Shown in pieces: positions 29,695 through 59,345 of a stretch of 62,838 nucleotides of DNA. The stretch lies in the IMG/VR virus record IMGVR_UViG_3300042444_000200, positions 1 to 62,838 of that record; one strand, 5' to 3'. The translations under genes were made by a program, and so were the position numbers. The notes beneath the pieces are model-generated. The model did not search any database. It worked only from the letters and a program-made list of their open reading frames with translations, and had not been told where the DNA came from. This DNA comes from a virus. Numbering within the stretch: the stretch's first letter is position 1; each line of letters opens with the position of its first letter.

Positions 29695-29695
29695 C

Positions 29696-39655: not shown

Positions 39656-39901
39656 ATGGATTCTTCTGACCAGTCCGAAGCAAGGTTCGTCTACCGGCCG
39701 TCAAGCAGGGTTGCCCATGTGTGGGTGGGCGAAGACACGGCCTGCCGGATGTGGTCAACGGGCGGGCTACGCCAGCACAAGTTCGTGTTCGCCGAAGACG
39801 CTGGCGGCAGGGAGACCTGCAACAACTGCAAGAACTGCGCATGTGAATCGGACGAGTCGGAGAGGATGTCTCACCTCCGCTCGATACTCACCTGCCCATG
39901 A
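39656..39901 (+). CDS. Unknown small Cys-rich protein (81 aa)
   Basis: MDSSDQSEARFVYRPSSRVAHVWVGEDTACRMW; the second of two nearby ATGs, preceded by GAGGGGC. A CNNCKNCACE cluster suggests metal binding. Alone and convergent with the 1124-residue gene (14-base overlap). Next to int, so it may be expressed from the prophage. Function unknown. Confidence 0.6.
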   Translation: MDSSDQSEARFVYRPSSRVAHVWVGEDTACRMWSTGGLRQHKFVFAEDAGGRETCNNCKNCACESDESERMSHLRSILTCP

Positions 39902-42900: not shown

Positions 42901-43259
42901 GCACGGCCGGATTTGGTCAGGGCACTCATCGGCCCCGTAAGCAGGGACAACGGGTCGGTCGCAACCTCTGTCGCCAGCCCGCCCCAGAAGTCAACGTATC
43001 CGTTGCCGGTTGAGAGCCCGGCGTTCGTCAGGAGGTCTCGCCCCGACACGCGGTCGTCGGTCAGCGGGTCGTTCCACTGGCCGTCCTGTGCGTAGTCGAT
43101 GCCCGACCTGACGTACGCGGCGGGGGTGTCGAGTGCCCACCCCAAGTCCGATACGAAGTTCAGGCCACGCTTAGAAAGCGACCACAGAAGCGAGTCGCGA
43201 TCCTGATCGCTGATGTAGGTGGCTTCCTGACCGCCGCCTGTGGGGCCGCTGCGAAACAT
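39888..43259 (-). CDS. Giant internal virion/ejection-type protein (1123 aa)
   Basis: Begins MFRSGPTGGGQEATYISDQDRDSLL; a TTG one codon earlier is less likely. Long helical stretches with scattered small hydrophobic parts (LATEVATDPLSLLTGPMSALTKSG), KRVNEVPTTLDRLIQ-type linkers, and a C-terminus rich in Arg/Lys/Leu (ELNRRLGKDSREAKKRREQLGL). No enzymatic motif is evident. In podoviruses such proteins lie inside the capsid and are ejected with DNA. It is the last gene of the late block. Confidence 0.72.
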   Translation of the reverse strand: MFRSGPTGGGQEATYISDQDRDSLLWSLSKRGLNFVSDLGWALDTPAAYVRSGIDYAQDGQWNDPLTDDRVSGRDLLTNAGLSTGNGYVDFWGGLATEVATDPLSLLTGPMSALTKSGRALKSAGLLDDAARYASRSLSDDASRALASGAPLDLPSYAKRTLSDMGADVSTDQAALEAAAKYAEHYGRPLVGARDSLRNSRLGDVIGSDPAMLEKVRGALDLPRGAAIPNDLLDDTLGRNFGLAMPLSSTNFGAFDVPGGAALGDAMDRAGSYLRWNPVGRGYAALTDKSVSGQTDALSQAIAKKANAYGDIGEAKAGREFVDRIGFDATMSPTNLHTTEIGEAMGRLMEDTPAARIATSADRTLMGNAPAVKKAVDEWGNIRQEILADGKRLGVPSAELEHPYGVGYLPYKENIPGYNEGGSRRVFDPETGDMLHRADYNKLPGGLAQLQELSADARFAGKGRTLSGVGADGVGLATDDEVAQQIYGIVNGAVPAGAPEYSMDNALGLTRMLNRLDGPKAIFGTHPLESVAQYMQGRGRKHGMVDALLDSVQGQVRDMPYTHVPGGGHISVGEALTTRLGLEPGAMDELAKRMGVTTDELANQSVSRDVIDNISRMADAYKSPQAQSTIAKYIKSYNNLFKANALLSGSRLTRDLYSSAIGNFILAGNSTLPGMADASTLMHGVKDNYRAFASRLADIPRYKKLPEADRLKAFMLDIGESRVLQGMGTLGTEIGDRTGEAVKTLMPGSVQENIYNPASQWSDLLSIRGVYDPATKAWGQDALKTRNPLYRAAEVAGDKSDTFTRLTGYMGLLRQNIDPLEAARLVKRQHVDYSQLTTVEKSLRDYLVPFYTYESRSIGRTVDDLVRRPGGRTGQMIRMLARSSDPSEQGDPYLPEHIRRLPPYIPLGDNNFLTNIEFPGINAINAGKIKKDANGWVDPYESLIATLQGYGSKLAPIPKASIELLSGNDLFSGKRINEVPTTLDRLIQSATGDDEAQAPDAINMASRFVAPALPLGLGKIVTQMTDTRSGASPEERAARAFLSATTGLQVKTATPEDAARDAQRQARELLKGHTRSYDSVSIAEDELLTLSPELRQVYELNRRLGKDSREAKKRREQLGLMGR

Positions 43260-43267
43260 CAAGCCCC

Positions 43268-45592
43268 CTATGCCGTGAAGGCGTGCGCTTCGTTTACGCC
43301 AAGACTCGCACTTGGGTTCTTGCCGTTAGGATCGCCGACCAGCGTGGCCCGGCGTGCCTTGTAGACGTCGTAGAACTTGGACAGTTTTTCCTGTAGCCCC
43401 TGCGGGTTGTCGCCGTCGTAGTGCTGCAAGATGCCTTCGATGAAACTGGCCTTGTCCATCATCGCGTACGACTGATCCTTGAGTTGGGTCAGCGCAGCCT
43501 GCTCAAGGTACCGCCAGTCACCCTGACGCATGTACGCCGGGCCAGCCGAAAGCCGCTGGGCAACGTGCGTTCGGGCAAATCGGTTGAACGCCGACTTCTT
43601 TTCTTCTCGCTGGGCGTTGTCGAGGTGGCCCATGCCACTGAGTTTGGCCTCGAAGTCCCGCTCCATGTCCTGAAGTGTCGGGCCTTCCTTTGCCAGCGGC
43701 GCGTTCATGATGGGGGTCATCAAGTCCGCCTCTTGCTGTGCTGGCAGGGCCCCCTTTGCTGCGTCCCTCGCTGCGCCTTCCTCTTGCAGAACAAGCCTTC
43801 GATTGTCGTTGAGAAGTGTTGCCCGCTTGAACTCAAGGTCTTGCTTGCGTTCTTCGGCGGCGATCTTCTCCTTTAGGTTTCCGGCCCTCTCGTGAGCAGC
43901 GATTTCCTTGTCAACGATTGTCATCTTGGCGTCGATTTCAGCGAGGGCGATTTCTCGCTGCTTGTCAGCAAGTTCTCCTCGCTGCGCTCTGTCCGCTGCG
44001 GCGTTGTTTGCGTCTGCGTCGTTGCGCTCCCGAGCAACCTGCCGGTCGGCCTCTCTCTGGACTCCCATCGCCTGCTGCTCTAGAACGCCACCTGCCGCAT
44101 TGACCACGTTCGCGCCCAGCGCCGGGTTACGGTGGTTGGCACCGCCCATCATCATGTTCTTGAAGAAGGCGTCGTTCTGGGCGGAAGCGTTCTGGGCAAC
44201 GAGGCCCTCGTGCATCTTGATGGCGGAGTCAGCGTGCTCCTTCATGGCCTCGCCCTGTGCGATCAATGCCCTGCCACGCATCCGATCTTCAGCCTGCGGG
44301 GAGGACATGAGAGCGTTGCCCTGACCGATCATCTCCGCAGCCCGGCCGCTCTGTAGTCGAGCCCGTGCGTGCCCGTACGACAGGCCCTCGTTACGGGCCA
44401 TGTTCTGCGTGCCGACATGGTCGCGGTAGTTGGCCTGCGTGTGAACACGCTGCTGGTCGTGGGCCTCGCGTCGCATTCGTCCGCGCTCAAGCGCAGGCAT
44501 GTCAGCCCACTCGTCAGGCGAGAGGCGACCGTCGCCGTTCTTGTCGTGCTCAGTACCGGCAACTGCCTTGTCGAAGAAGACTCGCGTGTTCGGGTGGATG
44601 CCACGAAGGTCTGCCATTGAGCGACGGCGATCCATCTCGGCCTTCATTGCCTGCTTCTTTGGATCGACCTCTGGCTTTGGGGCGTCCGGCTCCATCTGTG
44701 CGGCTGCTGGCCGCACGGGCACGGGCGGCATCTCTGCGTTCGGCTTGGCTTCTGCTACTGCTGGAGGGGCGGGAAGTGCACCACGCTGCGGGGCTGGCTT
44801 TTCGTCCGCCTTCTTCGGCATCTCGCGTACAACGGCCGGGCGATTGTTTTGGCGGTCAAACTCCGCTTGATCTTCCACAGAAAGCGGGTGCGGCCCTGCT
44901 GCTCGGCGGTCAACTTCAGCCTGCTCGTCGGAAGACAGGCCGGTTTCCCTGCGACCCCAACTGTCTGTATCAAGCAGTCCGGGTGGCGATGCACCCCTTC
45001 CTGCGTTTGACGGGAGTGTGCCACCCTTGACAAATCTGTACGCCTGCGCCACCGACCCTTCGCCGTCTTCTTTTTCTTTCGACGAGTGGTCAGATACCCA
45101 CTGCTCGTTTAGTAGTCGCGGGACTGTTGGGAATGGATTGTCGCTGGCGTCTCTGGCAAGACCTTCTGCGTGGTGGTCGATGATGTCAGGGCGCACGCCA
45201 CCCGCATATGGTCGATCCGGGTAAGTGAGCGGCGCACGGTTGAGGTCAGACTGCGACGGCCTGTTGGCAAGCGATGGGAGTCCTGTGGCAGCACGATGCT
45301 CTCCAATGAGTTCTTGCATCTTGGGCGGCACAATGGTCGCGTACCGGCGATGCTCTGCGCCAATCTGGGCCGGAGGCGAGTCGCTGCGAGGGATCAGGGC
45401 ATCTGCAATCTGGTTCGCGGACGGAACCGCCACGCCGTTGCTGTCTACGGGCGGGCCCCACGAGACAACAGCCGGGCCTCCGGGAGGGGCAAACCCAACG
45501 CGGGCAATGCTGTCGCGCTCCCGCTGCTCGCGAGCCTCGCGAATCAAATCGTGCGACAAGCCGCCGGAGTATGCGGAAGAAGAAAGGGGCAT
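43268..45592 (-). CDS. Large coiled-coil internal virion protein (774 aa)
   Basis: MPLSSSAYSGGLSHDLIREAREQRERDS. First third is Pro-rich, followed by a long coiled coil (about 480-600, Ala/Glu/Lys/Arg) and a helical tail (FIEGILQHYDGDNPQGLQEKLSKFYDVY). A short EF-hand-like DKNGDGRLSPDEWADM near 365 suggests calcium binding. Probably a core or ejection protein with its two large neighbours. Confidence 0.72.
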   Translation of the reverse strand: MPLSSSAYSGGLSHDLIREAREQRERDSIARVGFAPPGGPAVVSWGPPVDSNGVAVPSANQIADALIPRSDSPPAQIGAEHRRYATIVPPKMQELIGEHRAATGLPSLANRPSQSDLNRAPLTYPDRPYAGGVRPDIIDHHAEGLARDASDNPFPTVPRLLNEQWVSDHSSKEKEDGEGSVAQAYRFVKGGTLPSNAGRGASPPGLLDTDSWGRRETGLSSDEQAEVDRRAAGPHPLSVEDQAEFDRQNNRPAVVREMPKKADEKPAPQRGALPAPPAVAEAKPNAEMPPVPVRPAAAQMEPDAPKPEVDPKKQAMKAEMDRRRSMADLRGIHPNTRVFFDKAVAGTEHDKNGDGRLSPDEWADMPALERGRMRREAHDQQRVHTQANYRDHVGTQNMARNEGLSYGHARARLQSGRAAEMIGQGNALMSSPQAEDRMRGRALIAQGEAMKEHADSAIKMHEGLVAQNASAQNDAFFKNMMMGGANHRNPALGANVVNAAGGVLEQQAMGVQREADRQVARERNDADANNAAADRAQRGELADKQREIALAEIDAKMTIVDKEIAAHERAGNLKEKIAAEERKQDLEFKRATLLNDNRRLVLQEEGAARDAAKGALPAQQEADLMTPIMNAPLAKEGPTLQDMERDFEAKLSGMGHLDNAQREEKKSAFNRFARTHVAQRLSAGPAYMRQGDWRYLEQAALTQLKDQSYAMMDKASFIEGILQHYDGDNPQGLQEKLSKFYDVYKARRATLVGDPNGKNPSASLGVNEAHAFTA

Positions 45593-45601
45593 CGTGTCCT
45601 C

Positions 45602-48600
45602 TCAATACGCTGGGCCGTACTGCCCGTACCCGTACATGCGGGCGGCAGAGACCGACTTGAGCACGCGGGACAGTCGCTCGACCTCGTCTGGGCCCATGCC
45701 CTCGCCAGCCCCGTTTGCTGCTCTGTTTATGGCCTGTTCCCCATCCGCACCGCCAAGTTGAGGTGCGGCCGCTGCGGCTTCCTCGCCAAAAACAGATTCG
45801 CCGTAATCGGCTTCGGGCGAGCCGCCAGCCGCTGCGGGCTCGCTCTCCTGTGGTGCCGGTGCCGGTGCTGGGGCTTGGCGGCGGGGCGGAACGTCTTGGC
45901 TGGAGTCCCCAAACACCGCGTCGTTGTAGGAAGAGGGCTCTGTCTTGGCATCCCTCTCGCCGAGAACCATGCCAGCGATTGGCGGCACGGCGGCGATGCC
46001 AGCGATCCTTGCGACATTCCCCCACCGCTTGTCCTTTGGCCCAATGATCCGGTCGATCAGGGTAGGGCCCGGAGGCGGCTCCGGGAGGTTGGGGTCAAAT
46101 GTGACCACATCCTCATCTGTCGTGGGCAATCTTGCAGTGTTGCCGTCCTCGTCTACATACGGCTTCATCCAGTCGGCGTCTTCTTTGAACTTTGGTTCGT
46201 CGCTGACCTGCCGGGCGCGGACTGACGGAATATGGGTCGTGCTGGCGGCTGGGGCTGGCGGCGGCACGGGCTTCGACTCTTTCGTGCCGTCTACGACGCG
46301 AGGCTTCCCGTTAGACGAAGTGACCACGCCCTCTGGGGCGGGCTTTGCGGCAGTCGAACTGCTCACCCCCGACATCCGGCCCGTGCCGGGAGTCAACTTG
46401 GCCGGGCCCTTCGGAGGCGGCGTCACCTCAGTCGTCAGTTCGCCAGCCGAGTCTTTCATGTGATCCGGGATCGGCGGGAAGACCTCGCCGTCTTCGCCGG
46501 GCACGTTGTCGCCCTCGACAACATCGCCGGGCTTTCTTCGCTGCCTGATCGTCGTGCCAATGGGCGGCTTCGCTGGGGCCTCAAACGTGGTCGGGCCATT
46601 GGTCTTTCGGAGTTCGGCACCCTTTGCGTCAATCGCGTCAAACAGTTCGAGGTCTGACAGTCCCTCGTGCGGTACGCCCCACTGCTCTGCGAGGTTTCGC
46701 ATCTGCTCGACGGGCGGTGCGTTGGCCGGAAGCGTGCGCGGGGCAGGCGTCGCAGCGGTCGCGGCGGGCTTCGCAACCTCTTCGGCGGGCTTCGCGGCTG
46801 CCTCGCTGGCGGCGGCTCGTGCGTTCGCTTGCTCCTGCGTCTGCTTCGCTACCTCCAGAGACTCCTTCTGTGCGGTCTCGAAACTTGACGCCGGGTTCGT
46901 CATGTCGATGGACTTCGGCGCGGCCGCGTTGGGCACCCACTTCTTGCCGACCAACTTGCCGTCTGCGTCAACGGCCTCTTGGCCGAACTGCTTGACGGCA
47001 GCGTCAACGCCCTTCTTCTTGATGAACCCCGTGATCTCGGAGTCGCCGGTCATGGCTGCGGGAACGGCCGTGAGATTGTCGGCGGCTGCGGGCGTCGGAG
47101 CAGGGGCCGGAGCAACCTCTGCCTGCGGGGCCGGTGCCTCGACCACAGCCTTCTTCCGCGAGCGGGGAGGCTTCGCCGCAGGAGTCGGCACGCCACCTTC
47201 AGGTACTTCTGCCAGCGGCCCGGCTGCTGGTGCCGGAGTGGCGGGGGTCTTTGCTTTCTCGGGGCTCGGGAACCACTTGTCCCAGTAGTCGTTCACCGCC
47301 CTGTCGCTGCCAGTGTTCATCGACTCGGTGAGGGCCTTAGCAAACGCATCGTTTCGTGCGATGTCGTCGGCCGACTCCGAGCGAGTCACGAGTTCGCCGG
47401 TCTGAAGATTCTTCTGAAGAGGGGTCGTTCGCTTGGCGTCTGGGCCGCGAACATTGTCCGGCACCGGCGGCAGTCGGCTGGCGTCTTGGGATGTGCCGGG
47501 AGAAACAATCCCCGCAGGGTCTGTCTCTGTCATCGCCGGAGCGTCGCTTGCTGGCCGCGCTCCGCCTGTTGCTGGGCCGACGCCCAACTTTCTTGCATCT
47601 GTGCCAAGAGTTGTCCGCAGTTCACGCAGTGCCTTGTCAGTAGCCTTGCTCGCGGCAACGCGGTCATCAAGCGAGCCAGCCGCTGGCGTTGCTCCTCCGG
47701 CGACGCGCCCTTCTTTGCGGATGGCGGCATCCAGCGTGCGGGACATCTCCGGCGTCCACTGGAGATTGGGCAGGCCCTGAGACTTGCGGTACTTGTTGAT
47801 GTAGGTCTCGACTCGGGCAATCGCCGACTGGACGCTAAACCAGTTTGTGTTCTCCTCAAGCCGCGACGCCATTTCCAGCATCGTGCGGAACGCCTCTTGC
47901 GGGTACTTGAGGCTTCCGTCTGCTGCGTCTTCGGTCAAGACCTGATGCGTGACGGGGAGTCGCCCGCGCTGGTCGGCCGCGACGAGTCGGCCAATGCGGC
48001 TTGAGCCCCGACCGCTTTGTGAAGAGAACCCCGACTGCGTTTGGCCTTCGACGAGGTTGCCGTCCTTGTCAACGACCTCGCTGCCCTTCGTGGCGGTGCC
48101 GCCACCCTCGCCCATAGCAATCCCGCGATTGTAGTCTGCTGTCGAAAGGTCGTACGGCTCCATGTCAAAGCCCGGCCTCAGCCGGTACAGACTCTTCGAG
48201 CCATTCTCCAAAACGTCCTGCTTGCGCATGGACTGGCTGCTTTGCCAAGACCGAGCCCGCTCCATGAGTTCCTTCGTGGGAGCGCCATCTCCGCCTTCGC
48301 TGCGCATCCGGTCGGCAACCTTGTGTGCAATCTCCTGCTGCTGGGTGATGATCGAAAGACGCTGCAACTTCGCCTCTTCGGGCGACATGTCCTCAAGTTG
48401 GCGTAGCGTCTGGATTTCTTCGGCAGTGAATAGGCCGCCGTGCGAAATCGGGTCAGACATGATGTTGTGGGCATCGTCCGGCGAAGCCTCTATCGCTGAA
48501 TCAAGTCGCACCTTGCTTTCCGACAGGGCGTGATTGAGGAGGTCTTCGAGGTCGGAGGTCTTCTGTCCGTCGCGAGGCAGGTTTCCGGTTGAAGCAAGCG

Positions 48601-49273
48601 CCTTGCGGATGTCGCCGGGCAACTCTCCCTTGTTGAGGCGGCTCTTTTCCGGCTCGTTCACATCGACGTACTTGCGCTGCTCGTATTCGGGGGTGGAGTA
48701 GTCCACCTTCTCGCGAGATCCATCTGCTCGAACGTGCTCGGTCGTGATCTTCGGCGACGCCTGCCGCTTGCGATTGCCAACGCCCGCTGGAGATGGCTCG
48801 CCAATCTGCGGATCATCCTTGCCGAGTTGCAAAACATCACTGCCGGGCTCGCCGTCGTCCAACTTATCGACTGGGACTTCCACGCCTTTCTTGGCCTTGC
48901 GGACTGCCTCGAACTCCGCCGCCCACTTCGCGTTCTCGCTGGCGGCGTTCTCGACGATACCCTTCTGGATTTCAGGCTTGAGGGATCGGAAGGCTTCCTG
49001 CCCCGCCAGCGTGTGCAGGTCGTTGCGGAGAGCACGCACCCGTGCGGCAGAGTCGCCCATGTTGGCTGTGTCAACTGCCTGCTCAAGAGCCTGCGTGCGA
49101 ACGGCAGGCTCTGCGGCGGCTTTCGCCTTGCCTGCGCTTGGGTTCACTTCGAGTTCGAGCGCAGACTTCGGAACAATGCGCGTTGGCTTTGTCGGCTTCT
49201 TGCCGGAACGCGCAGCGTTGATACCCCGAAGGGCCTTCTCGGCAGAGGTAAGGTTCGAGAACTTGTCAGCCAT
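45602..49273 (-). CDS. Giant Pro/Ala-rich virion protein (1223 aa)
   Basis: MADKFSNLTSAEKALRGINAARSGKKPTK; basic start, helical N-terminal half (DVLENGSKSLYRLRPGF, LRQLEDMSPEEAKLQRLSI), long Pro/Ala/Glu disordered region (about 650-1070), and an acidic end. Similar composition to its neighbours suggests a shared internal complex. A GGCCATAAAC motif lies in its last 45 codons, 133 bases before the next gene. No catalytic site visible. Confidence 0.7.
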   Translation of the reverse strand: MADKFSNLTSAEKALRGINAARSGKKPTKPTRIVPKSALELEVNPSAGKAKAAAEPAVRTQALEQAVDTANMGDSAARVRALRNDLHTLAGQEAFRSLKPEIQKGIVENAASENAKWAAEFEAVRKAKKGVEVPVDKLDDGEPGSDVLQLGKDDPQIGEPSPAGVGNRKRQASPKITTEHVRADGSREKVDYSTPEYEQRKYVDVNEPEKSRLNKGELPGDIRKALASTGNLPRDGQKTSDLEDLLNHALSESKVRLDSAIEASPDDAHNIMSDPISHGGLFTAEEIQTLRQLEDMSPEEAKLQRLSIITQQQEIAHKVADRMRSEGGDGAPTKELMERARSWQSSQSMRKQDVLENGSKSLYRLRPGFDMEPYDLSTADYNRGIAMGEGGGTATKGSEVVDKDGNLVEGQTQSGFSSQSGRGSSRIGRLVAADQRGRLPVTHQVLTEDAADGSLKYPQEAFRTMLEMASRLEENTNWFSVQSAIARVETYINKYRKSQGLPNLQWTPEMSRTLDAAIRKEGRVAGGATPAAGSLDDRVAASKATDKALRELRTTLGTDARKLGVGPATGGARPASDAPAMTETDPAGIVSPGTSQDASRLPPVPDNVRGPDAKRTTPLQKNLQTGELVTRSESADDIARNDAFAKALTESMNTGSDRAVNDYWDKWFPSPEKAKTPATPAPAAGPLAEVPEGGVPTPAAKPPRSRKKAVVEAPAPQAEVAPAPAPTPAAADNLTAVPAAMTGDSEITGFIKKKGVDAAVKQFGQEAVDADGKLVGKKWVPNAAAPKSIDMTNPASSFETAQKESLEVAKQTQEQANARAAASEAAAKPAEEVAKPAATAATPAPRTLPANAPPVEQMRNLAEQWGVPHEGLSDLELFDAIDAKGAELRKTNGPTTFEAPAKPPIGTTIRQRRKPGDVVEGDNVPGEDGEVFPPIPDHMKDSAGELTTEVTPPPKGPAKLTPGTGRMSGVSSSTAAKPAPEGVVTSSNGKPRVVDGTKESKPVPPPAPAASTTHIPSVRARQVSDEPKFKEDADWMKPYVDEDGNTARLPTTDEDVVTFDPNLPEPPPGPTLIDRIIGPKDKRWGNVARIAGIAAVPPIAGMVLGERDAKTEPSSYNDAVFGDSSQDVPPRRQAPAPAPAPQESEPAAAGGSPEADYGESVFGEEAAAAAPQLGGADGEQAINRAANGAGEGMGPDEVERLSRVLKSVSAARMYGYGQYGPAY
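45725..45734 (-). promoter_or_regulatory. GGCCATAAAC motif inside coding sequence
   Basis: Within the 1223-residue gene, coding Ala-Ile-Asn with the ATA codon, which looks infrequent in this GC-rich genome. It is 133 bases before the ATG of the 774-residue gene, so it may be an internal promoter. Confidence 0.5.
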
Positions 49274-49276
49274 TCG

Positions 49277-49606
49277 TCACTTCTTCTTCTTGAATGGGAA
49301 CGGCTTCTTGCCCTTCTTGAACTTGCTCTTGTCAGGGTCAGCCTTGCTGTCCTTCTTCTTGTCTGCCTCTTCGTGCATCTTGTCGCGGAGTTCGGACGGC
49401 AGTTCTGCCTCGTCGGACGGATCGTCCTTGTGCGGCTTCTTGCCGTGACGCTCTGCCATCAGGTCGGCAGTGTCCTCGTTCTCTGCGTCTTCCTCTTCGC
49501 GAGCCTTGTCGCGATTCGCCTTCTTGTTGTCGTCGCTCTTGAGCAGGGCCTGCTTGAGCAAACGCTTGAGGGCGGTTGGCTTGATGTCGTCGAGGTCAAA
49601 CTCCAT
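49277..49606 (-). CDS. Highly charged small protein (109 aa)
   Basis: MEFDLDDIKPTALKRLLKQALLKSDDNKK; Lys, Asp and Glu exceed half of the residues. It ends FKKGKKPFPFKKKK. Disordered except the first helix; it could condense DNA or act as an assembly aid in the head. A CCATAAAC motif is 61 bases upstream. Stop followed by three bases to the next gene. Confidence 0.65.
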   Translation of the reverse strand: MEFDLDDIKPTALKRLLKQALLKSDDNKKANRDKAREEEDAENEDTADLMAERHGKKPHKDDPSDEAELPSELRDKMHEEADKKKDSKADPDKSKFKKGKKPFPFKKKK

Positions 49607-49615
49607 GTCTCTCTC

Positions 49616-50176
49616 CTATCCAAGTAGTCGTCGAAGAATGTCGAGTTGCGCCTTCTGTCGTGCCGCGTTTATGGTTGCGCCAGCCTGCTGTCCTGCAAAG
49701 CCCTTCGCCCAGTTGGCTTGGTCAAACATGTGCTGCAAGACGCCCATCTGCTGGGCCTCCTGCTCGCGTCCAAACTGGAAAGCAAGGCGAGCCTGAGCGT
49801 TGTTCATTTGGTCTTGGGCCTGAATGCCAGCAGAGTCTGCGCGGCCTTGCGCGAGCGCCTGCTGCTGCCCGACCTGTGCGAAGTAGTCCGTCCCCCTTGA
49901 GGAACTGATGCCATTGCGAGCCATCTGCTTCTGGAAGATTCGAGGATCGCCCATCATCTGGGCCTGCCCCATGCGGTTGTTCACCGCAGTCTGGGTCGAG
50001 TTGGCGGAGATGTAGTTCGGCTCCTGCCAAGTTGACTGAGACGAAATGTTTGTTCCGCCGTTGAGGCCACCAAGAGCGCTTCCGCCCTTTGGCATTGACT
50101 TTGGTGCGGCCGGAGCGGGGTTTGGCCCAGCACTGCCGGGAGCCAAAAGCACAGGCGGCGACGATCCGGGATTCAT
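49616..50176 (-). CDS. Gln/Ala-rich virion-type protein (about 186 aa)
   Basis: MNPGSSPPVLLAPGSAGPNPAP from ATG; GTG codons a few residues earlier overlap the upstream stop. Pro/Gly-rich start, then Gln/Ala-rich helix (AQVGQQQALAQGRADSAGIQAQ, FQFGREQEAQQMG). Resembles the 176-residue protein near terL and the 190-residue neighbour. Likely a minor ejection protein. Confidence 0.65.
   Translation of the reverse strand: MNPGSSPPVLLAPGSAGPNPAPAAPKSMPKGGSALGGLNGGTNISSQSTWQEPNYISANSTQTAVNNRMGQAQMMGDPRIFQKQMARNGISSSRGTDYFAQVGQQQALAQGRADSAGIQAQDQMNNAQARLAFQFGREQEAQQMGVLQHMFDQANWAKGFAGQQAGATINAARQKAQLDILRRLLG
49667..49675 (-). promoter_or_regulatory. ACCATAAAC motif inside coding sequence
   Basis: In the coding end of the Gln/Ala-rich gene (again coding Thr-Ile-Asn with ATA), 61 bases before the charged 109-residue gene. 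Confidence 0.42.
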
Positions 50177-50181
50177 GGAGA

Positions 50182-50754
50182 TCACTTGAACCACCCCCCC
50201 ATTCCAGATATTCCGCGAATGCCTGCGGCGGCAATGCCGGAAGCAAAGCCAATGTTGTTTGCCTCGATCTGGGCGGCGAGTCCCTGCTGCGAGACGCTTC
50301 GGTCGGCCATGTCGCCGTAAATCTTCGCGAGATTCCCTAGACCCGAGAGAGAAGACTCCGACCGCTTGGCCTGCTGCGCCATCTGCATTTGCTGGTTCTG
50401 GGCGTCAATGCCGCGACCGATCTGGGCCGCGTCGTTCAAAGACGTTGAGCGAGCGAGGGCGGCAATGTTTGGGTCAGACGGATTGCCGGTGTTGAGCAGT
50501 CCAGAAAGAACTCCGCCCTTGCCGATGCCTGCCCCGACGTTGATGCCAGACTGGTAGTTGACGGCAGTGGGTGATGGCTGTGAACCGGCGGACGGGGTGC
50601 TTGGAGATGCCTTCGGTGCCTGCGGCTGTGCCCCCCGTCGCGGCTGCGACATGGCATGCTGGACGTTTGCGTTGTGGCGCGCAATCATCCCGTCGTTGGA
50701 CAACTGGCCCATCAGTCCATAGACGCGCTTATTGTCGGGGCTCATGCCTGCCAT
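50182..50754 (-). CDS. Small virion-type protein (190 aa)
   Basis: MAGMSPDNKRVYGLMGQLSNDGMIARHNANVQHAM; GGAG eight bases before. Ser/Pro linker, Gly-rich part (GINVGAGIGKGGVLSGLL), Gln-rich helix and Gly/Ile-rich C-terminus (IGFASGIAAAGIRGISGMGG) that may insert in a membrane. The motif GGCCATAAAC stands 17 bases upstream. Probably an ejection or tail-needle-like part. Confidence 0.66.
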   Translation of the reverse strand: MAGMSPDNKRVYGLMGQLSNDGMIARHNANVQHAMSQPRRGAQPQAPKASPSTPSAGSQPSPTAVNYQSGINVGAGIGKGGVLSGLLNTGNPSDPNIAALARSTSLNDAAQIGRGIDAQNQQMQMAQQAKRSESSLSGLGNLAKIYGDMADRSVSQQGLAAQIEANNIGFASGIAAAGIRGISGMGGWFK

Positions 50755-50802: not shown

Positions 50803-51258
50803 CTACGGCAGGGCTTCCGGCCACTTTGCGGCCCGAGCGATAGCCAGCCGGATCAGCGTTTTCCCGGCCAGTTCGACGTACGGGAGTTTCCTCTTGGCGG
50901 CCTCCTCGCCCAGCCAAGTGGAGATCAGTTCCACGTTGTCGCGGCACCACTGGAGGCCCTTCAAATCCATCTCTCGGGCTCTGGCGTTGCACTTACAGGT
51001 GGGCGATGAGGTTATGCCTATCCGCTTCAGCATTCCCTTCATCGCCGTCCCTGCGCCACGAGGAGGCGGGGGCTTGGGTGGGCCGTAGACCTCCGGCTTG
51101 GCAGCCTTCGCCGGGCGGGGCTTCGGGTAGGCCGAGTGCTTCTCGTCAATCGTCCACTCGTCCCCCTGCTTGGAGACGACGCATGGCATGACGTCGGAGA
51201 CTTTGTACCCGCGCTCGGCACAGCGGGCGAACAAGTGCTTCTTGTGACAGGTGATCAT
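50803..51258 (-). CDS. Unknown protein beside Cys-repeat gene (151 aa)
   Basis: MITCHKKHLFARCAERGYKVSDVMPCVVSKQGDEW. Pro/Lys-rich linker, then GITSSPTCKCNARAREMDLKGLQWC with three Cys, then a helical end (WLGEEAAKRKLPYVELAGKTLIRLAIARA). Such proteins often sit beside Cys-rich phage proteins. Coupled to it (ATGA). May help fold or process it. Confidence 0.65.
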   Translation of the reverse strand: MITCHKKHLFARCAERGYKVSDVMPCVVSKQGDEWTIDEKHSAYPKPRPAKAAKPEVYGPPKPPPPRGAGTAMKGMLKRIGITSSPTCKCNARAREMDLKGLQWCRDNVELISTWLGEEAAKRKLPYVELAGKTLIRLAIARAAKWPEALP

Positions 51259-53627
51259 GGGAGTGGGTTCTCCGCGACTCGGGGTATGCAGGTGGGGCGT
51301 CCGAATCGCAGAGGCGCTGTCGGCGGTTCGGCAGCGGGTGCTGGGCCGGTAGTGCAGGCGGCCCCCAAGTTGCTGCCTTGACTATCACTGTTTGCGAAAG
51401 CCATCACGTTCGGGGCCTCCTCCCACTCCTTCTTTCGGCAGTTGAGCGCGAACATGCGATACCGAAAACGAGTCACAGTGGAGAAGCCTATACAGCACTC
51501 ACTGTTCGCCTCACTGTTGGTCTCGGAAACATAATCAGACCAGCCGGTTAAGCGAGCACCTTTGGCGCGAAGATCATCCAGCGGGGAGCAGTCGTTATTT
51601 TCGCAGAAGTAGTCCAGCGTACCCCCCTGCTCCACTCTATCGAAAGTGTAGTAGTCCGACTCGAATCCATTGAGAGGGCTGGGGCCACAGTGGGTAGGGG
51701 CGTCCGGTCGCTGCTGGCCGCAGGGGACGCCGTTTGCCACGCAGTATGTCCCGCCGATCCCCGCGCAGTCGCACCCGCAGGTCGTGTCGAACGCCTCGCC
51801 CGGCTCGTAGAACGTACCGCCCCACTCCTTGCACTGCTTGCGAGAGACGTACGACAGGCCGTACTCGGTGCAGCACCCGCCGATGCAGAGTTCGACGCAC
51901 TGGCCGTTACAGCATTCGCCCGTTGCAACGAGGGAGGTCTCCGTTCCGGGCCGACCATCCTCCCAGCATTGGTTGGTTCCGGGTTTCGGAACCTGCCCAT
52001 CTTGGCAGCAGCCATGACCCTCGAAGTATGTGTCAGGTGCGTCGCAGCCGCAGTCCGAATCGACCACGCACTCCGGTTTCACGCAGTTGCCGCCACAGGT
52101 GTCTTCGTCGTACGGGCCGTTGTCGTCGGGCACGCACTGGTCGTCAACGCAGGCGTACTTCTTGGGCTTGTCGCAGTTGCCGCCGCAGTCGTCTGTGTCG
52201 TACTCGCCGTCGGGGTCTTGGACGCAGGTCTTCGTGCCGTCCCCGTTGTCTTGGCAGGTGTACGCCTCCTTGCAATCTTCGGGGGCACCATCGAGGCAGG
52301 CGTCTTCGCTGTCGTACGGGCCAGAGTCGCCCGACTCGCACGCATCAGGGGCGGTGCAGTACCAGTACACCTTCGCACACGCCGCCTCCTTGCACGCCAC
52401 ATCGTCGTCGTACGGCCCGCCCTTCTCCTCCGTGCCAGCAGGGCAGTTGCCCTTGTAGCAGTTGCGTTCGCCGTTGCTGTCCTCGCAGCAGTAGTACTTC
52501 TCGCACTCGGGTTCGCAGAGGTCTTTCGTGTCGTATGGCCCGCCAACCTCGTTCTCCCCGTAGTACTCGCACTCGTCATCTCGGCAGGTCTTGTTGCCGT
52601 CGCTGTCTTCGCAGCAGTAGTACTTGACGCCGCAGTCTGTGGAGCACTCGCGGGGCGTGGAGTACGGCCCGCCAGCCTCTGTCTGGTCGGGAGGGCACCC
52701 GTACTTGTAGCAGTCCTTGTCGCCGGAGGCGTCCTCGCAGCAGAAGTACACAGGATCGGGCGGGCACTCGCCGTCGCAGTCGGGCGTCTCGTACTGGTTG
52801 AGAATCAGGGAGGGGTCGATGGCGTCGCTGAACGCCACGCACTCGTAGCCATCGACGGGGTACGGAGTCTTCTGGGCGCAGACGTAGTAGACGGGGCACT
52901 GACTATCACAGTCGGTCTCGTCGGTGTACACGCCGACCGTAGTCGTGCCGTTCGGGCAGCGGCCGGGATGGCACGACCGCTCGCCAGTGGCGTCTTGGCA
53001 GCAGTAGTAGAGCGTCTTGCAGTCGTCCGCGCACTCGATGTCGTCGATGTACGGCCCGCCAACTTGGTTCTCGCCGTAGAACTCGCAGCCCTCCTGTCGG
53101 CAGGTCTTTACGCCATCGGCGTCCTCGCAGCAGTAGTACTGCGTGTCTTTGCAGTTGTCCTTGCAGACTTGCAGGTCGGTGTACGGCCCGGTCGGGTCTT
53201 CTGTACAGTCGTATGTGTCAGTGTTGCATTTGTAGTGCGTCACCTTGCACTTGTCGTCGCACTCTTCTGGCGTGTCGTAGACCCCGTACTGAACGTAGCC
53301 AACACCGCACGGAGTGGAGTAGCAGTCCCGGTCGTCAGGGTCGCTGGCTGGCCCGCAGCAGTAGTACTTGTCGGGCGTGCAAACCGCAGCACACTCGGCA
53401 AGGTTCTCGTAGGGCCCGGCCGGGTCTGGCACGCAAGTGTACGAAGAGGTGTCGCACGAGTACCGCTTGCACTTTTCGTTGCACTCTTTCTCGGAGGTGT
53501 ACGGCCCGGAGGGGTCTTGCGTGCAGTCCTGCGTGGCGGGGTTGCACAACCACTTCGTGCAGCAGCACGAGGCGACGAACCCGGCAGCCCGGCGCAGCAG
53601 CCCACTGGCGTTGCGTGCAAGGGGCAT
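51255..53627 (-). CDS. Cysteine-rich tandem-repeat virion protein (790 aa)
   Basis: About thirteen imperfect repeats of 35-45 residues run from residue 20 to 560. Each has Y-Y-C-C-x-D-x-x-G, C-x3-C, a G-P-Y (or GVY) signature and a terminal C-x3-C pair. Over 80 Cys and many Asp/Glu. The last 200 residues are a different Cys-containing domain with SDYVSETNSEANS. No signal sequence. Looks like a disulphide- or metal-crosslinked stalk, perhaps a tail spike exposed outside the cell. I know no close phage family. Confidence 0.75.
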   Translation of the reverse strand: MPLARNASGLLRRAAGFVASCCCTKWLCNPATQDCTQDPSGPYTSEKECNEKCKRYSCDTSSYTCVPDPAGPYENLAECAAVCTPDKYYCCGPASDPDDRDCYSTPCGVGYVQYGVYDTPEECDDKCKVTHYKCNTDTYDCTEDPTGPYTDLQVCKDNCKDTQYYCCEDADGVKTCRQEGCEFYGENQVGGPYIDDIECADDCKTLYYCCQDATGERSCHPGRCPNGTTTVGVYTDETDCDSQCPVYYVCAQKTPYPVDGYECVAFSDAIDPSLILNQYETPDCDGECPPDPVYFCCEDASGDKDCYKYGCPPDQTEAGGPYSTPRECSTDCGVKYYCCEDSDGNKTCRDDECEYYGENEVGGPYDTKDLCEPECEKYYCCEDSNGERNCYKGNCPAGTEEKGGPYDDDVACKEAACAKVYWYCTAPDACESGDSGPYDSEDACLDGAPEDCKEAYTCQDNGDGTKTCVQDPDGEYDTDDCGGNCDKPKKYACVDDQCVPDDNGPYDEDTCGGNCVKPECVVDSDCGCDAPDTYFEGHGCCQDGQVPKPGTNQCWEDGRPGTETSLVATGECCNGQCVELCIGGCCTEYGLSYVSRKQCKEWGGTFYEPGEAFDTTCGCDCAGIGGTYCVANGVPCGQQRPDAPTHCGPSPLNGFESDYYTFDRVEQGGTLDYFCENNDCSPLDDLRAKGARLTGWSDYVSETNSEANSECCIGFSTVTRFRYRMFALNCRKKEWEEAPNVMAFANSDSQGSNLGAACTTGPAPAAEPPTAPLRFGRPTCIPRVAENPLP

Positions 53628-53629
53628 GG

Positions 53630-54427
53630 CTACACCGTGCAGTCGGTTACGGGGATGTCAATCGGCCCGGCAGATTCTGCGGGCGAGCCAAGCACATAGC
53701 GGCTCTCCCGCTTGAAGGTGAGCGCGCCGCTGCTGTCTAGGACGTCGTAGACGTACTCCATCTGCTCAAGCGGAATCGAATCATCGACCTCTGCGCCCAA
53801 GCCAAAGCCGAACATCGTGCGCTTTCGCAGCGTGAGACGCTCGCCATCGATAGAGATGCCGGTGATGACTTCGATGGTTTCGCCCTTCGGCTTGATGGTG
53901 AACTCAAGGCCGTTCCGATCCACCCCAAAGACCTTCTCGTTACTGCTCTTGACGTTGAGCCTGCGGCCTCGAAGGGTATTGCTCTCGAACGTGGCAACCT
54001 CGCCGTTGCCCCCGCTGCCGTTGAGCGAGACTCGCGGGCCATCGACTCGAATGAACGGGCCAGCCGAAATGGAAAAGGAGTTGCGGTAGACGTTGGTGTT
54101 CGTCGGCTGGAAGGGCTCGCGGAGGGGGCGATCCTCTGTCTCTGGAGCGGGAGGTCGGCGGTCGTCCTCTGCACGCTTCTCCTCCTGTGGCGGCCGGATG
54201 CGTGGCATCTCGCCGCTGATCTGCTCTAGGTTGGGGAAGCGGTACTTGCGGAGTTCCGGCGTGACGAACTTGAAGTCGGGCGGCGTCGCGTCAACGGACA
54301 CGGGGCCGCGATGGATGAGTGCTTGTGAGCAGTTGCCAATCGCTGACATGGCACTGTTGGCTGCCAGCGGGTTGATCCCGCCGTCGATGAGTGCCTGCTC
54401 TAGGCGAACCGCCTGCTTGGTAAGCAT
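53630..54427 (-). CDS. Unknown tail/virion protein (265 aa)
   Basis: MLTKQAVRLEQALIDGGINPLAANSAMSAIGN; Pro/Arg-rich middle (EKRAEDDRRPPAPETEDRPL), then beta-rich repeats with GDGERLTLRKRTMFGFG-like strands. It shares a style with baseplate or tail-hub accessory proteins. Precedes the Cys-repeat gene by two bases. Function unknown. Confidence 0.65.
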   Translation of the reverse strand: MLTKQAVRLEQALIDGGINPLAANSAMSAIGNCSQALIHRGPVSVDATPPDFKFVTPELRKYRFPNLEQISGEMPRIRPPQEEKRAEDDRRPPAPETEDRPLREPFQPTNTNVYRNSFSISAGPFIRVDGPRVSLNGSGGNGEVATFESNTLRGRRLNVKSSNEKVFGVDRNGLEFTIKPKGETIEVITGISIDGERLTLRKRTMFGFGLGAEVDDSIPLEQMEYVYDVLDSSGALTFKRESRYVLGSPAESAGPIDIPVTDCTV

Positions 54428-54428
54428 G

Positions 54429-57425
54429 TCAGGCTCCCGGCGTTCCGAAGACGTCTACCGAGTGAATCTCGATGGGCCCGGTCGTAGAACGCTCCGCCGA
54501 CAGTTCGATGGCTACATGGCGGTCGTTGCCCTGTATGTCATCGACGGTGTGCGAAGAGAACAGAGCACGACACACGCCGGTAGAGATGCGGTCGGGCAGC
54601 AGGCCAGCGTCCATGTCGAGCGTTACGCACGGCTCTTGCGTCTGGTACACGACGCCCGTACCGCGATCTCTCGCCGCCACATTGACTCGCGGATGAGGCG
54701 AGTTGTTGTAGTACATACGGAGTTTCATCAGGCTCGGGCCAGCGGTAGGGGTGAACAGCAGGCCGACGTTGCGGTTCTTGTCCGCCATCTCCACAGGCAG
54801 GGAGTCGTGCGGGTACTCCATGTTCCCTGACTTGAACCAGCACGGGATCGGGGCGGAGTTGTTGTCCCCAACCGTGCAGGTGGCCGTTGCCCGCACGCCA
54901 CCGGCAGGCGGAGGGTCAATGCTTACGCTTGCCGTTGTGTAGCCGTAGCCGCCGTACCGCAGGTACACGCCAAGCAGCGTGCCGTCGCCAGAGATGGCGG
55001 CTTCGGCCACAGCCCCATCGCCGTTGCCGGAGATAGTCACTTGTGGCGTCTTGGTGTAGCCCTTGCCGGGATTCGTAAGCGTGATGGTTTGGATCGAGTC
55101 GTACTCAACGTCTGTGTCGCCAGAGTTGACCTCGTACAACTTCCCTTCCGGCCCTCCGTAGAGGCAGCGACTCACGCCCGCTGCGTCCCGAACAGTGGCG
55201 GAGCCCACGAGCGCGGCCGGGTACCGCTCCTCCCACCACCCCTGCGCGTCGAACGAGAAGCAGAGCATCCGGGTGGGGTACTTGCCGGGCCCATCCCCCT
55301 TGAACCGCACAGCCACGCGGAGGCAACGTGTCTTGCGGTCGGCCGTCACGGAGAACCAATCGTCCTGTGCGAAGTCGATCTTGTCGTCGAACAGGCTGCG
55401 GATACCGAGCGATAGCGGCTGGACTTGCCCGCTCGCATCCATCGCGTACACCCCCTGCGTGTCCATGCAGTAGACGAGACCCTCGAACTCATCCCAGCAC
55501 CGCTGATTCAAGCACCCGCGATAGGCGGCAATCTGGACGTTGGCGTCGATGATGGGCTGGGAGACGTAAGACAGTCGGTAAGAATGCCGCGTCTGCATCA
55601 CCCCCAGTGAGGAGCCGTACGGAATCAGTGCCGTGATGTGGTCGTGGCCTTTGACGTTCGTCTGGATGTTGATCTGGTTGATGTCAGGGCAGGACTCGGG
55701 CTCGTTGTACTCTGAGAACTTGAGCCGGTTCGGACTGTTGCCGCCCGTGTCTACAGCCATCCACAGGCGGTCTTGAAACATCACCGCCACCGTCTTGTTC
55801 TTCGGCGGCACGCCAAATCGGTTGGCGTTGAGTTCGCCGTTCGGCAGTAGGACGGGCATGGCGGCGTAACCGGCCCGGTCGTAGTCGGTGAGTTGCTGGT
55901 CGGAGAGTTTGTCGGTGAATGAGGTCACGCCGCTGGCTACGCGATAGACCGTGTACGCCTGATCGCTCGTAGTGCGCCAGAGTTCGACCTTGAGTGGTCG
56001 TTGCGTGGCACTCGCTGGCGGCGGTGCAGCCACGACCCATGTCAACTTCTCGGCCCCCTCTCCAGTGTCGATGGTCGTTACGGGGGAGAGGCTGGAGCAG
56101 ATAGGCCCGCCACGATCCTCTGGGGTGTCGTCAACGTAGCGGTAGTAGCAGTCGTACTTGCCTCGAATGTGAGGTCGGATAATGGCGACCGCTTTCGCAC
56201 CGCCGACGGGCACGCTGAGTTTCGGAGGGGAGGCGTACGAGCCACCCTTGAGGACGCTGACGCTCTCGATCTTGCCGTCCTTGATCTTGGTTTCGAGAAC
56301 CGCGCCGTAGCCGCTGGCGTCGTCTACCTGAATGAAGGGCGGAATAGTGAACCCAGTGCCACCATCGTCTACCTTGACGCTCTTGATCGCGTAGGTGGGG
56401 GCAGTGTCATCTCCAGCCCCAATGGTGGACTCGTTGGAGTAGAAGGCGATCCGCAGCGCAGAGGAGCCGCCACACTCGCCGGGCTTGTCGCCAGCAGCCA
56501 GCCTGCCCGGAGCGTGTATCTCGTACGCAACGTCCTTGTCGTACGGGCCTCCGCCGTCGGTGCCCCGTATGCCACTGGCACCGTAGCCCGGAATGAATAT
56601 AGAGCGTCCGCTACTGAGAATCTCGACGCTGATCGGCGATCCTGCGGGGTAAAGTGCCGTGACGCCGGGCGGATACCCCGCCGGGCCGTCAACGGATCGC
56701 GTTCCGAAAGTGAGCAGCACCACCGCAGCGGAAGTGCTACCGGCAACCTTCACGACAAACTGGATTTCAGACCCCCGATACCCAGCGTAGTACCAGACAC
56801 TCCCGTTCATGTCGGCGTAGTCCACCCAACTGTTTTGGATAATGTTCCCCATGCCGGGAACAAGGAGTTGATTCCCAACCCCGCTCGTGATCACCGCAGG
56901 CAGGCAGACGTACGGGGATGGCCTCGACACGACGCGGTACTTGCCGATGGCCTTCGGGTCGGAGGCTGGAGTGGTCGGGCCGGTCGGGTCAGGCGTGTCG
57001 CCGTCCAGTACTGCCGTGAGCGCGCCGAACTTGGAGTGCTGGTCTCCCAGTATCACGGTCGGCGTGGACTCATAGCCCTCGCCGTACTCCAGCATGGAGA
57101 AGTCGCCCACCGCGTTGCCGGTGAGGAAGGCGCGGGCCTTCGCAACCTTGTCGGGACTGCCGCCGTCTATCGTCACCTTCGGGGCAGAGGTGTAGTAGTT
57201 GCCGCCTTCGACGACGTCGATGCGGGCGACGTAACTCTTCGGTGTGCCGGATGGCGTGACCGACGGCTTCGAAGTGGGGGCGTCGATACCCATGTCAACC
57301 GCCTCCGCATTCGTCAGGTCAATGCGTGACGGGCGGATGCCGTTGCCCTGAAACAGGTAGCCGTATTTGTTCGGGCCTACCGCCAGCGTAGCCGGAGTGC
57401 TCTTTGCGATGGTACGGAGAAGCAT
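54429..57425 (-). CDS. Large tail protein (998 aa)
   Basis: MLLRTIAKSTPATLAVGPNKYGYLFQGNGIRPS. Beta-rich with repeated G-x-G-Y/F-T-x-x-P-x-V-x-I motifs (YTKTPQVTISGNGDGAVAEA, GGTGFTIPPFIQVDDASGYG). This pattern is known from phage tail stalk and receptor proteins. It follows the small 91-residue gene, in place for a tail tubular B-like nozzle or a spike. Sits at the centre of the tail cluster. Confidence 0.75.
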   Translation of the reverse strand: MLLRTIAKSTPATLAVGPNKYGYLFQGNGIRPSRIDLTNAEAVDMGIDAPTSKPSVTPSGTPKSYVARIDVVEGGNYYTSAPKVTIDGGSPDKVAKARAFLTGNAVGDFSMLEYGEGYESTPTVILGDQHSKFGALTAVLDGDTPDPTGPTTPASDPKAIGKYRVVSRPSPYVCLPAVITSGVGNQLLVPGMGNIIQNSWVDYADMNGSVWYYAGYRGSEIQFVVKVAGSTSAAVVLLTFGTRSVDGPAGYPPGVTALYPAGSPISVEILSSGRSIFIPGYGASGIRGTDGGGPYDKDVAYEIHAPGRLAAGDKPGECGGSSALRIAFYSNESTIGAGDDTAPTYAIKSVKVDDGGTGFTIPPFIQVDDASGYGAVLETKIKDGKIESVSVLKGGSYASPPKLSVPVGGAKAVAIIRPHIRGKYDCYYRYVDDTPEDRGGPICSSLSPVTTIDTGEGAEKLTWVVAAPPPASATQRPLKVELWRTTSDQAYTVYRVASGVTSFTDKLSDQQLTDYDRAGYAAMPVLLPNGELNANRFGVPPKNKTVAVMFQDRLWMAVDTGGNSPNRLKFSEYNEPESCPDINQINIQTNVKGHDHITALIPYGSSLGVMQTRHSYRLSYVSQPIIDANVQIAAYRGCLNQRCWDEFEGLVYCMDTQGVYAMDASGQVQPLSLGIRSLFDDKIDFAQDDWFSVTADRKTRCLRVAVRFKGDGPGKYPTRMLCFSFDAQGWWEERYPAALVGSATVRDAAGVSRCLYGGPEGKLYEVNSGDTDVEYDSIQTITLTNPGKGYTKTPQVTISGNGDGAVAEAAISGDGTLLGVYLRYGGYGYTTASVSIDPPPAGGVRATATCTVGDNNSAPIPCWFKSGNMEYPHDSLPVEMADKNRNVGLLFTPTAGPSLMKLRMYYNNSPHPRVNVAARDRGTGVVYQTQEPCVTLDMDAGLLPDRISTGVCRALFSSHTVDDIQGNDRHVAIELSAERSTTGPIEIHSVDVFGTPGA

Positions 57426-57714: not shown

Positions 57715-58671
57715 TTACGCCCCCTGATCTGGGCCCATCTGCGTGTACGATCCAGCGTACGCAGTGTTTGCGGCGTCAGGGATGCGGTCGTATGGAGCGC
57801 GACGGCCAGAGAGCGGCGTGACCGTGTCATTTTCCATCGCGATCTTCAGGTCTCGCTGATACAGGCCGAGAGCAGCGTTGACATCCTTGCCCATGAGTCT
57901 CGCAGCCCACAGTTCCGCGCCTGTCAGGATCGCCGTGAACATGCCGGGAGAGACGTCAAGGTAGTCGCTGATGACGTAGCGAGTCTGGTCGGTGACCGTG
58001 CCCGCGCTCGTATCGAGCGTCAGGGACGAACCGCTTGCCCGCGTCTTGATCCTGTGCTGCGAGACGTACGGGTAGAAGCCCGAGAGCGGCTCTGGGTAGT
58101 TGCTCGGGGTGCCGATTCGCAGGATGGCACCAACGCTGCGAGCCGGGAAGTTGGTGCTGACGCCAGTGACAGTCGTGCCAGCGGCGGTGATAAAACCTGT
58201 GCGGCAGGAAGTCTCGTAGCCCAGAAGGGTCAGCGGCTTCGGGGCCCGCCGGTAGGTGTACCGGATGACCGTTCCTGCGGGGAGCCTGCCAGCAATCTTC
58301 AACTCCCAGCGGTCGAAGTCGATGGCGTCGGTGGACTTGCAGACCGTGTAATACACAGCCTCGCCGAGCGTGATGTTGTTCTGCTCTAGCCGCAGCCACT
58401 CGGCTGGCGTGATGTAAGAAGTGACGGTCGTGCGGTCAGGCAGCACGAGGGCGTCAATGTTCTTCACTTCCTCTGGGAGGACGTATGTGTTGTCGTTGGC
58501 GAGGGTCGTGATGCTGCCCTCTGACACGAGCCACAGCCAGTCGCGGGCGTACACGACGTCCCGGTAGGCGTGGTGGACGGCCGCACGAAGGACGCGGTGC
58601 TCTTGGTCTTGCGATCCGCCGCCGACCGTCTGCATCAGATACTCGACCACATCATGTGCTGTCTGGTACAT
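57715..58671 (-). CDS. Head-to-tail adaptor/tail tubular A-like protein (318 aa)
   Basis: MYQTAHDVVEYLMQTVGGGSQDQEHRVLRAAVHHAYRDVVYARDWLWL: the helical start with W-x-W is typical of podoviral adaptor proteins (tail tubular A), followed by beta domain (YVLPEEVKNIDALVLPD) and a C-terminal helix (LWAARLMGKDVNAALGLYQRDLKIAMEND). It joins portal to the tail nozzle. A GGCCATAAAC motif is 100 bases upstream. Confidence 0.78.
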   Translation of the reverse strand: MYQTAHDVVEYLMQTVGGGSQDQEHRVLRAAVHHAYRDVVYARDWLWLVSEGSITTLANDNTYVLPEEVKNIDALVLPDRTTVTSYITPAEWLRLEQNNITLGEAVYYTVCKSTDAIDFDRWELKIAGRLPAGTVIRYTYRRAPKPLTLLGYETSCRTGFITAAGTTVTGVSTNFPARSVGAILRIGTPSNYPEPLSGFYPYVSQHRIKTRASGSSLTLDTSAGTVTDQTRYVISDYLDVSPGMFTAILTGAELWAARLMGKDVNAALGLYQRDLKIAMENDTVTPLSGRRAPYDRIPDAANTAYAGSYTQMGPDQGA

Positions 58672-58677
58672 GTCGCC

Positions 58678-59313
58678 TCACCTCGCTCCTTTTCGGATGT
58701 TGTCTGAGCCCCACATCGGCTGGAGATTCGTGTAGTGACACGCCCGCCGGATGGCCTCTTCGTCCGTGTGGTTTATGGCCGATAGCGGCGAAATGTGGTC
58801 AATGTGCCACTTCCCCTGACCGACCCCCCAGTTCTCCCAAGTCATGCCCGGCTGGAACTGGGACTCGATGTGCAGCCGTAGTTCCTCGACCGTGCATCCC
58901 AAGTGCCGGACGGCGGAGGTGTCGTGCAGTTTTCCCCTCACGCACTGGTACAGGCGGCTCCGCAGCCGCTTGGGCATGATGTAGTTGGGCTTGTCTTTGT
59001 TGGCTTCGTAGTACCGCCGGGCGCGTGCGTTGTCCCGCTCGCGCTGCGCGGGGCTCCGCTTCTCCCAGCGAGCCTTTGCGTTGGCAGCCTCCCTCTCGGG
59101 ATTGGCGGCCCGCGCCGCCCGCTTGCGGGCCGCTGCCTGCTCCCGGTTGGCGGCGTACCACGCCCGCTGGCTTGCGGCCAACTCCTCACGGCGAGTCGCA
59201 CTCCGCTCGCGCCTCCGGGTCTTCCGGTGTTCCGCCACCTCTGGGTTGGCAGCAAGGTAGGCGGCTTGGTACTCCGGCGTCTGGGAAGGGTACTTGCCCC
59301 AGTTGCTAGGCAT
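58678..59313 (-). CDS. HNH endonuclease with Arg/Ala-rich N-terminus (about 211 aa)
   Basis: MPSNWGKYPSQTPEYQAAYLAANPEV from ATG (a GTG seven codons up is possible). Long Arg/Ala helix (30-110), then KWHIDHISPLSAINHTDEEAIRRACHYTNLQPMWGSDN, the HNH signature. Probably another homing endonuclease, between fibre and adaptor genes. Confidence 0.82.
   Translation of the reverse strand: MPSNWGKYPSQTPEYQAAYLAANPEVAEHRKTRRRERSATRREELAASQRAWYAANREQAAARKRAARAANPEREAANAKARWEKRSPAQRERDNARARRYYEANKDKPNYIMPKRLRSRLYQCVRGKLHDTSAVRHLGCTVEELRLHIESQFQPGMTWENWGVGQGKWHIDHISPLSAINHTDEEAIRRACHYTNLQPMWGSDNIRKGAR
58771..58780 (-). promoter_or_regulatory. GGCCATAAAC motif inside HNH gene
   Basis: In the coding end of the HNH gene (Ala-Ile-Asn with ATA), 100 bases before the adaptor gene ATG. 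Again an apparent promoter for a structural unit placed within the gene ahead. Confidence 0.5.
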
Positions 59314-59345
59314 GTCCGATTGCGTCGTGGGCACAGTAGTGCATG

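Follow-up and report, generated by a model that had tools for sequence, protein, structure and literature searches.

A gene whose product carries 93 cysteines, set among the tail genes of a phage, raises the question of what such a protein does for the virus that encodes it. The window, by which we mean the whole 62,838-base stretch of DNA analysed, is an IMG/VR virus record, and a sequence-only reading had singled out this product as a virion rod held by disulphides or metal. Receptor-binding proteins determine the host range of phages and are hard to spot in uncultured viruses. In our judgement the gene probably, though by no means certainly, encodes a modular, disulfide-stabilised adhesin by which a short-tailed phage binds its receptor, with a stalk of cysteine beads carrying an exchangeable tip.

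The gene and its product

The gene lies exactly where the sequence-only reading had placed it, on the minus strand, and its product is 790 residues long with a net charge of about -88; the 93 cysteines (11.8%) exceed the 80 that had been claimed as a minimum. As had also been proposed, no signal peptide is apparent on inspection: the sole hydrophobic stretch is broken by R12-R13, a position at which homologues retain K or R. Its parts are as follows.

51255-53627, minus strand: cysteine-rich bead-repeat protein, candidate tail receptor-binding protein, defined by its open reading frame, its composition and its orthologues L002 and L003
53556-53627, minus strand: N-terminal segment MPLARNASGLLRRAAGFVASCCCT, residues 1-24, candidate docking segment with a putative function
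52080-53558, minus strand: array of 13 cysteine units, residues 24-516, for which the AlphaFold2 model covers residues 55-244
51276-52079, minus strand: divergent C-terminal third, residues 517-784, candidate binding tip, delimited by identity in blocks
51258-51269, minus strand: C-terminal tetrapeptide NPLP, conserved in about 20 cysteine-rich proteins

Cysteine pattern and predicted fold of the repeat units

Thirteen repeats with GPY turns had been proposed, and thirteen units are indeed found in residues 24-516: seven short units with four cysteines and six long units with six, the latter starting with YYCC or similar. Twelve of the units close with GPY, GVY or GEY and one with NQY, and in nearly all of them this G-x-Y closing is followed by C-x3-C. 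The motif [YF]-x5-C-x3-C occurs eight times, against a mean of 0.9 and a maximum of 7 in 5,000 residue shuffles. All 67 of the 67 alignable cysteines in the repeat region are invariant in two orthologues, as compared with 308 of 445 other columns, which indicates that the cysteine pattern of the repeats is under selection.

AlphaFold2 modelling of window residues 55-244, aligned with relatives, predicted the tested units confidently (mean pLDDT 87.5), each as a beta-hairpin, a strand at the GPY and a helix carrying the C-x3-C. The arrangement of the units relative to each other was not predicted with comparable confidence (pTM 0.43); the proposed rod is thus not borne out, and "string of beads" is the safer and better-fitting description. 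A fold search with the bead array returned nothing at E values up to 0.001 in the PDB or among viral models, the best viral match being an uncharacterised Harvfovirus fragment (E 0.0014).

A cysteine-rich slot among the tail genes

The location in a tail cluster holds, given that nozzle-like and adaptor-like genes lie upstream, both with weak family matches. The immediate neighbourhood is listed below.

50803-51258, minus strand: companion gene of 151 residues with a C-terminal CNARA domain (TCKCNARAREMD); its start overlaps the stop of the cysteine-rich gene
53630-54427, minus strand: 265-residue gene that marks the slot; the N terminus ALGNCxQxLxHRGPV is conserved and the remainder variable
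54429-57425, minus strand: 998-residue nozzle/stabilisation-like tail gene, with weak matches
57715-58671, minus strand: 318-residue adaptor-like tail gene, with a weak PHROG tail match (E 0.003) and conserved in relatives

The weak matches of the 998-residue product are to an Arthrobacter phage minor tail protein, to PHROG virion/tail families and to 9nwi_Y (E 0.0049). An ORF at 58678-59334 on the minus strand, HNH-endonuclease-like by inspection, separates tail genes and could have been inserted as a mobile element. Elsewhere in the window, a match to a serine recombinase/invertase-type integrase (29621-30517, plus strand; PHROG 95 and 125) suggests that the phage could be temperate or could carry out DNA inversion. 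Downstream of the cysteine-rich gene, six consecutive genes at 39888-50754 on the minus strand (190, 192, 109, 1223, 774 and 1124 residues) encode zero cysteines; the large ones occupy the position of internal virion proteins, and their lack of cysteine makes the enrichment specific to the gene at 51255-53627.

More divergent phages were recruited via the nozzle-like gene and the 265-residue gene. The slot that follows these two genes is cysteine-rich in the window and in all divergent relatives with contig coverage, its products containing 252 residues and 11 cysteines in L012, about 155 and 17 in L014, 177 and 15 in L019, 282 and 43 in L023, 399 and 39 in L025, 407 and 40 in L026, 411 and 40 in L028, 410 and 38 in L033, and 413 and 40 in L015. 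These amount to about nine independent cases, since L019 and L020 are near-duplicates, as are L028 to L030 and L036. N-termini resembling MPLARNASGLLRRAAGFVASCCCT, with the pattern xGxLLxxxGxLxxxCCC, recur in slot proteins of diverse phages, and the slot remains fixed between tail and internal virion genes despite great divergence. In a protein that is presumably part of the virion, the N-terminal segment would dock onto the tail.

Divergence of the tip and a lectin domain in the same slot

A search of viral contigs with the cysteine-rich protein as query, the route to metagenome homologues envisaged in the sequence-only reading, recovered two relatives, L002 (698 residues, 85 cysteines) and L003 (745 residues, 87 cysteines). 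Identity to these two is 98 and 91% for the 265-residue gene and 95 and 94% for the companion, but 69 and 80% for the cysteine-rich protein; across most of the length of its C-terminal third it stands at about 26-50% in 60-column blocks, between flanking genes at 91-98%. A 134-residue slot protein of L083 shows homology to part of the L002 tip (53% over 76 residues), which points to module exchange. The number of units also varies, with 13 in the window and 14 in each relative, as L003 has one added short unit and L002 an added degenerate one close to where its array ends. The earlier expectation of a variable repeat count is thereby upheld, but the host-range effect attached to it is more plausibly assigned to the divergent, exchanged C-terminal third, the likelier determinant. 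On this comparison with two close orthologues, the C-terminal third would serve as an exchangeable binding tip.

GPY-bearing units resembling those of the window stand between other modules at L048, L050, L051, L087, L088, L090 and L118. A second module shared by the slot proteins at these loci, KPIRVQIWxP ... RVIKxDSxWRG ... FEVxVLxPC, is a candidate binding domain.

Slot proteins of the L025 clade begin with a cysteine-rich part, continue with a beta domain and end in a helical domain. Comparison of the beta-domain profile with the PDB gave the PA-I galactophilic lectin 6ygq (E 0.0017), PllA 5odu (E 0.0018) and LecA (E 0.018). The AlphaFold2 model of the L037 protein has a mean pLDDT of 76, with many of the lectin strands near 90, and a fold search with it returned EclA, PllA and LecA as the eight best PDB matches (E 9e-5 to 2e-3, probability 1.00); in Pfam, the lectin domain of the L025/L037 clade falls below the cut-off. 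The 790-residue window protein yielded no LecA/PA-IL domain, either as a PF07828 match or as a LecA fold, and no lectin or other binding domain was detected in it; the lectin clade and the window protein are homologous by slot and companion, not by sequence over their full length. No other observation speaks as strongly for a receptor role of the slot as the LecA-type domain of these same-slot relatives, and a sugar-binding domain at this place in some relatives makes an unusual host-attachment protein probable.

There is a minor chance that the protein is instead a structural part of the virion without a receptor role, such as a disulfide-rich protein of the collar, the decoration or the tail tip, which would keep the particle stable once the host has lysed. 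Its position in the tail cluster and its invariant cysteines would suit this, and Agrobacterium phage Milano offers a precedent for a tail hardened by disulfide networks (PMC10811340). The lectin domain of the same-slot relatives argues against it, however, as do the mosaic modules and the strong divergence of the C-terminal third between conserved flanks.

The companion gene and the NPLP terminus

The domain of the companion is named CNARA in this analysis. In the L025 clade it is the helical domain at the C terminus, with the consensus GPGTELKxLLxxxGIxASPTCSCNARAxxMD, and there it has a hydrophobic C-terminal helix. CNARA is fused to the cysteine-rich protein in L015, L025, L026, L028 and L033 and forms a separate overlapping gene in the window. 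With the L025-clade alignment as query, 80 viral loci were recovered, and in most of the loci examined a cysteine-rich protein directly precedes the CNARA gene. In 33 of 37 loci in which CNARA is not joined to the cysteine-rich part, the richest ORF immediately upstream reaches at least 4% cysteine (median 9.2%), a count biased upward by the choice of the most cysteine-rich neighbour and including the window and a few close relatives. Only 13% of plus-strand ORFs in those loci reach at least 4%, a contrast that is still large when one of the 37, L096, is recognised as a glycosyltransferase fusion. The largest of the cysteine-rich products, at L055:3438-8657 (1,740 residues, 241 cysteines) and L062:3443-8656 (1,738 residues, 235 cysteines), are encoded directly after a collagen-like tail fibre gene on contigs of 194-200 kb. 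The L055 product is a counterpart of the window protein by position, and its place after such a gene favours the receptor-binding reading.

Fusions of CNARA to glycosyltransferase-like sequences adjoin cysteine-rich genes at L096:7183-9258, L110:8035-9282, L113:8023-9234 and L100:8899-10704, the call being based on family evidence for L096 and on inspection for L110, L113 and L100. These fusions could hint at glycosylation of the adhesin.

The loci together contain 4,920 non-redundant ORFs with a length of 80 residues or more. NPLP or NPAP is the C terminus of 22 of them, each with at least 11 cysteines. The proteins that share the NPLP terminus, which include those of L055, L062, L064, L066, L083, L088, L092 and L118, otherwise differ, and all four codons vary synonymously. 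There is no overlap with a following start in L055, L062, L092 or the gene for the 391-residue protein of L064. The synonymous variation and these non-overlapping cases led us to reject NPLP as a by-product of an overlapping next start; the peptide, and not only the DNA, is conserved. We would guess that the companion recognises it. The overlapping CNARA gene would encode a partner specific to the cysteine-rich protein, which might be another component of the tail or might assist in assembly.

The glycosyltransferase fusions at other loci and the hydrophobic helix of the L025-clade CNARA domain could also be accommodated by a non-virion accessory protein, encoded among the late genes, that is located on the infected cell or is released at lysis, in superinfection exclusion, aggregation or interaction with competitors or predators. 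We consider this improbable, as neither the window protein nor most of its homologues have an apparent signal peptide and the slot keeps its place between tail and internal virion genes even in highly divergent phages.

State of the cysteines

Neither CxxC knuckles nor paired Cys/His ligands of the kind expected in a zinc-binding cysteine array were found in residues 1-516, which contain 0 CxxC and 2 histidines; the spacings are CC, C-x3-C and C-x4-C, within hairpin-helix units. The invariance of the 67 cysteines, the lack of CxxC and the near absence of histidine make disulfides more likely than zinc, judged from the sequence, so that of the two cross-links first proposed, disulphides or metal, the former is favoured and the latter is not. 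A metal-binding, zinc-type array in place of a disulfide protein is very improbable, for although the protein is acidic and is produced in the cytoplasm, in which thiols remain reduced, the spacings and the dearth of CxxC and histidine just described speak against it.

For the receptor-binding protein that we favour, thirteen beads, each a beta-hairpin and helix with two or three disulfides, would form a stable, probably flexible stalk. As no signal peptide is apparent, the disulfides could form only in an oxidising host or else during or after lysis, and oxidation during or after lysis is the most likely course. This raises the question of how a protein apparently produced in the cytoplasm acquires dozens of correct disulfides.

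Distribution and relation to known systems

Searches with the cysteine-rich protein gave no match in Pfam, PHROGs, NCBIfam or the PDB, and no known toxin family, the alternative named in the sequence-only reading, was matched. No relatives were found in 50,697 cultured-phage records; tblastn of the phage collection found nothing with this protein and three other slot proteins or with an adaptor-like relative, the L103 companion had no match in phage or plasmid collections, and scans of genome contigs found no cellular or prophage relatives. A scan for a YCCED-type DNA pattern gave five loci, of which the one examined resembled chance. No description of a cysteine-bead protein family was found in the open-licence literature, outside which most subscription journals lie.

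A broader proposal, which we put forward as possible but rather doubtful, is that these proteins constitute a widespread, undescribed class of adhesins in uncultured phages. Its members would be strings of disulfide mini-domains, between about 130 and 1,740 residues long and with as many as 241 cysteines, oxidised after lysis and bearing swappable tips, lectins included, and an NPLP tag; a tag-recognising CNARA companion would assemble, cap or, when fused to a glycosyltransferase, modify the adhesin. If this is right, an adhesin could be recognised in many metagenomic phages that have none annotated by a cysteine-rich gene, frequently with a terminal NPLP, that stands before a CNARA gene. What is new about these proteins is how they are built and how widely they occur, without annotation, among uncultured phages; their general function is not new.

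Several known proteins resemble parts of this system. The bead unit shares with Kunitz/BPTI domains a hairpin followed by a helix, and its end, [FY]-x5-C-x3-C, has the spacing of F45, C51 and C55 in BPTI numbering; the short unit differs in being about half as long, with four cysteines. Membership of the Kunitz/BPTI family was rejected in view of the absence of a Pfam match at E values up to 1 and of a significant fold match, and no Kunitz structures were among the 50 fold matches listed for the beads. Among the fold matches, the topology closest to one bead is that of MbtH-like proteins (about 39 residues at 1.5-1.7 Å), a match that is not significant (E about 1), to proteins that are not disulfide proteins and come from an unrelated context. 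The L025-clade domain resembles the galactophilic lectins LecA, PA-IL, PllA and EclA (Pfam PF07828) in its predicted fold and in its sequence profile, the GDN-x-G end included, but is embedded between a cysteine-rich half and the CNARA domain. The tail of Agrobacterium phage Milano contains extensive disulfides that join subunits of conventional sheath, tube and baseplate proteins (PMC10811340), whereas the cysteines of the window protein lie inside a repeat protein of a new kind. With phage tail fibres and receptor-binding proteins, the window protein shares its position, a conserved N terminus and an exchangeable C-terminal tip; in place of their beta-helix, collagen or coiled-coil shaft, its stalk is a chain of cysteine mini-domains.
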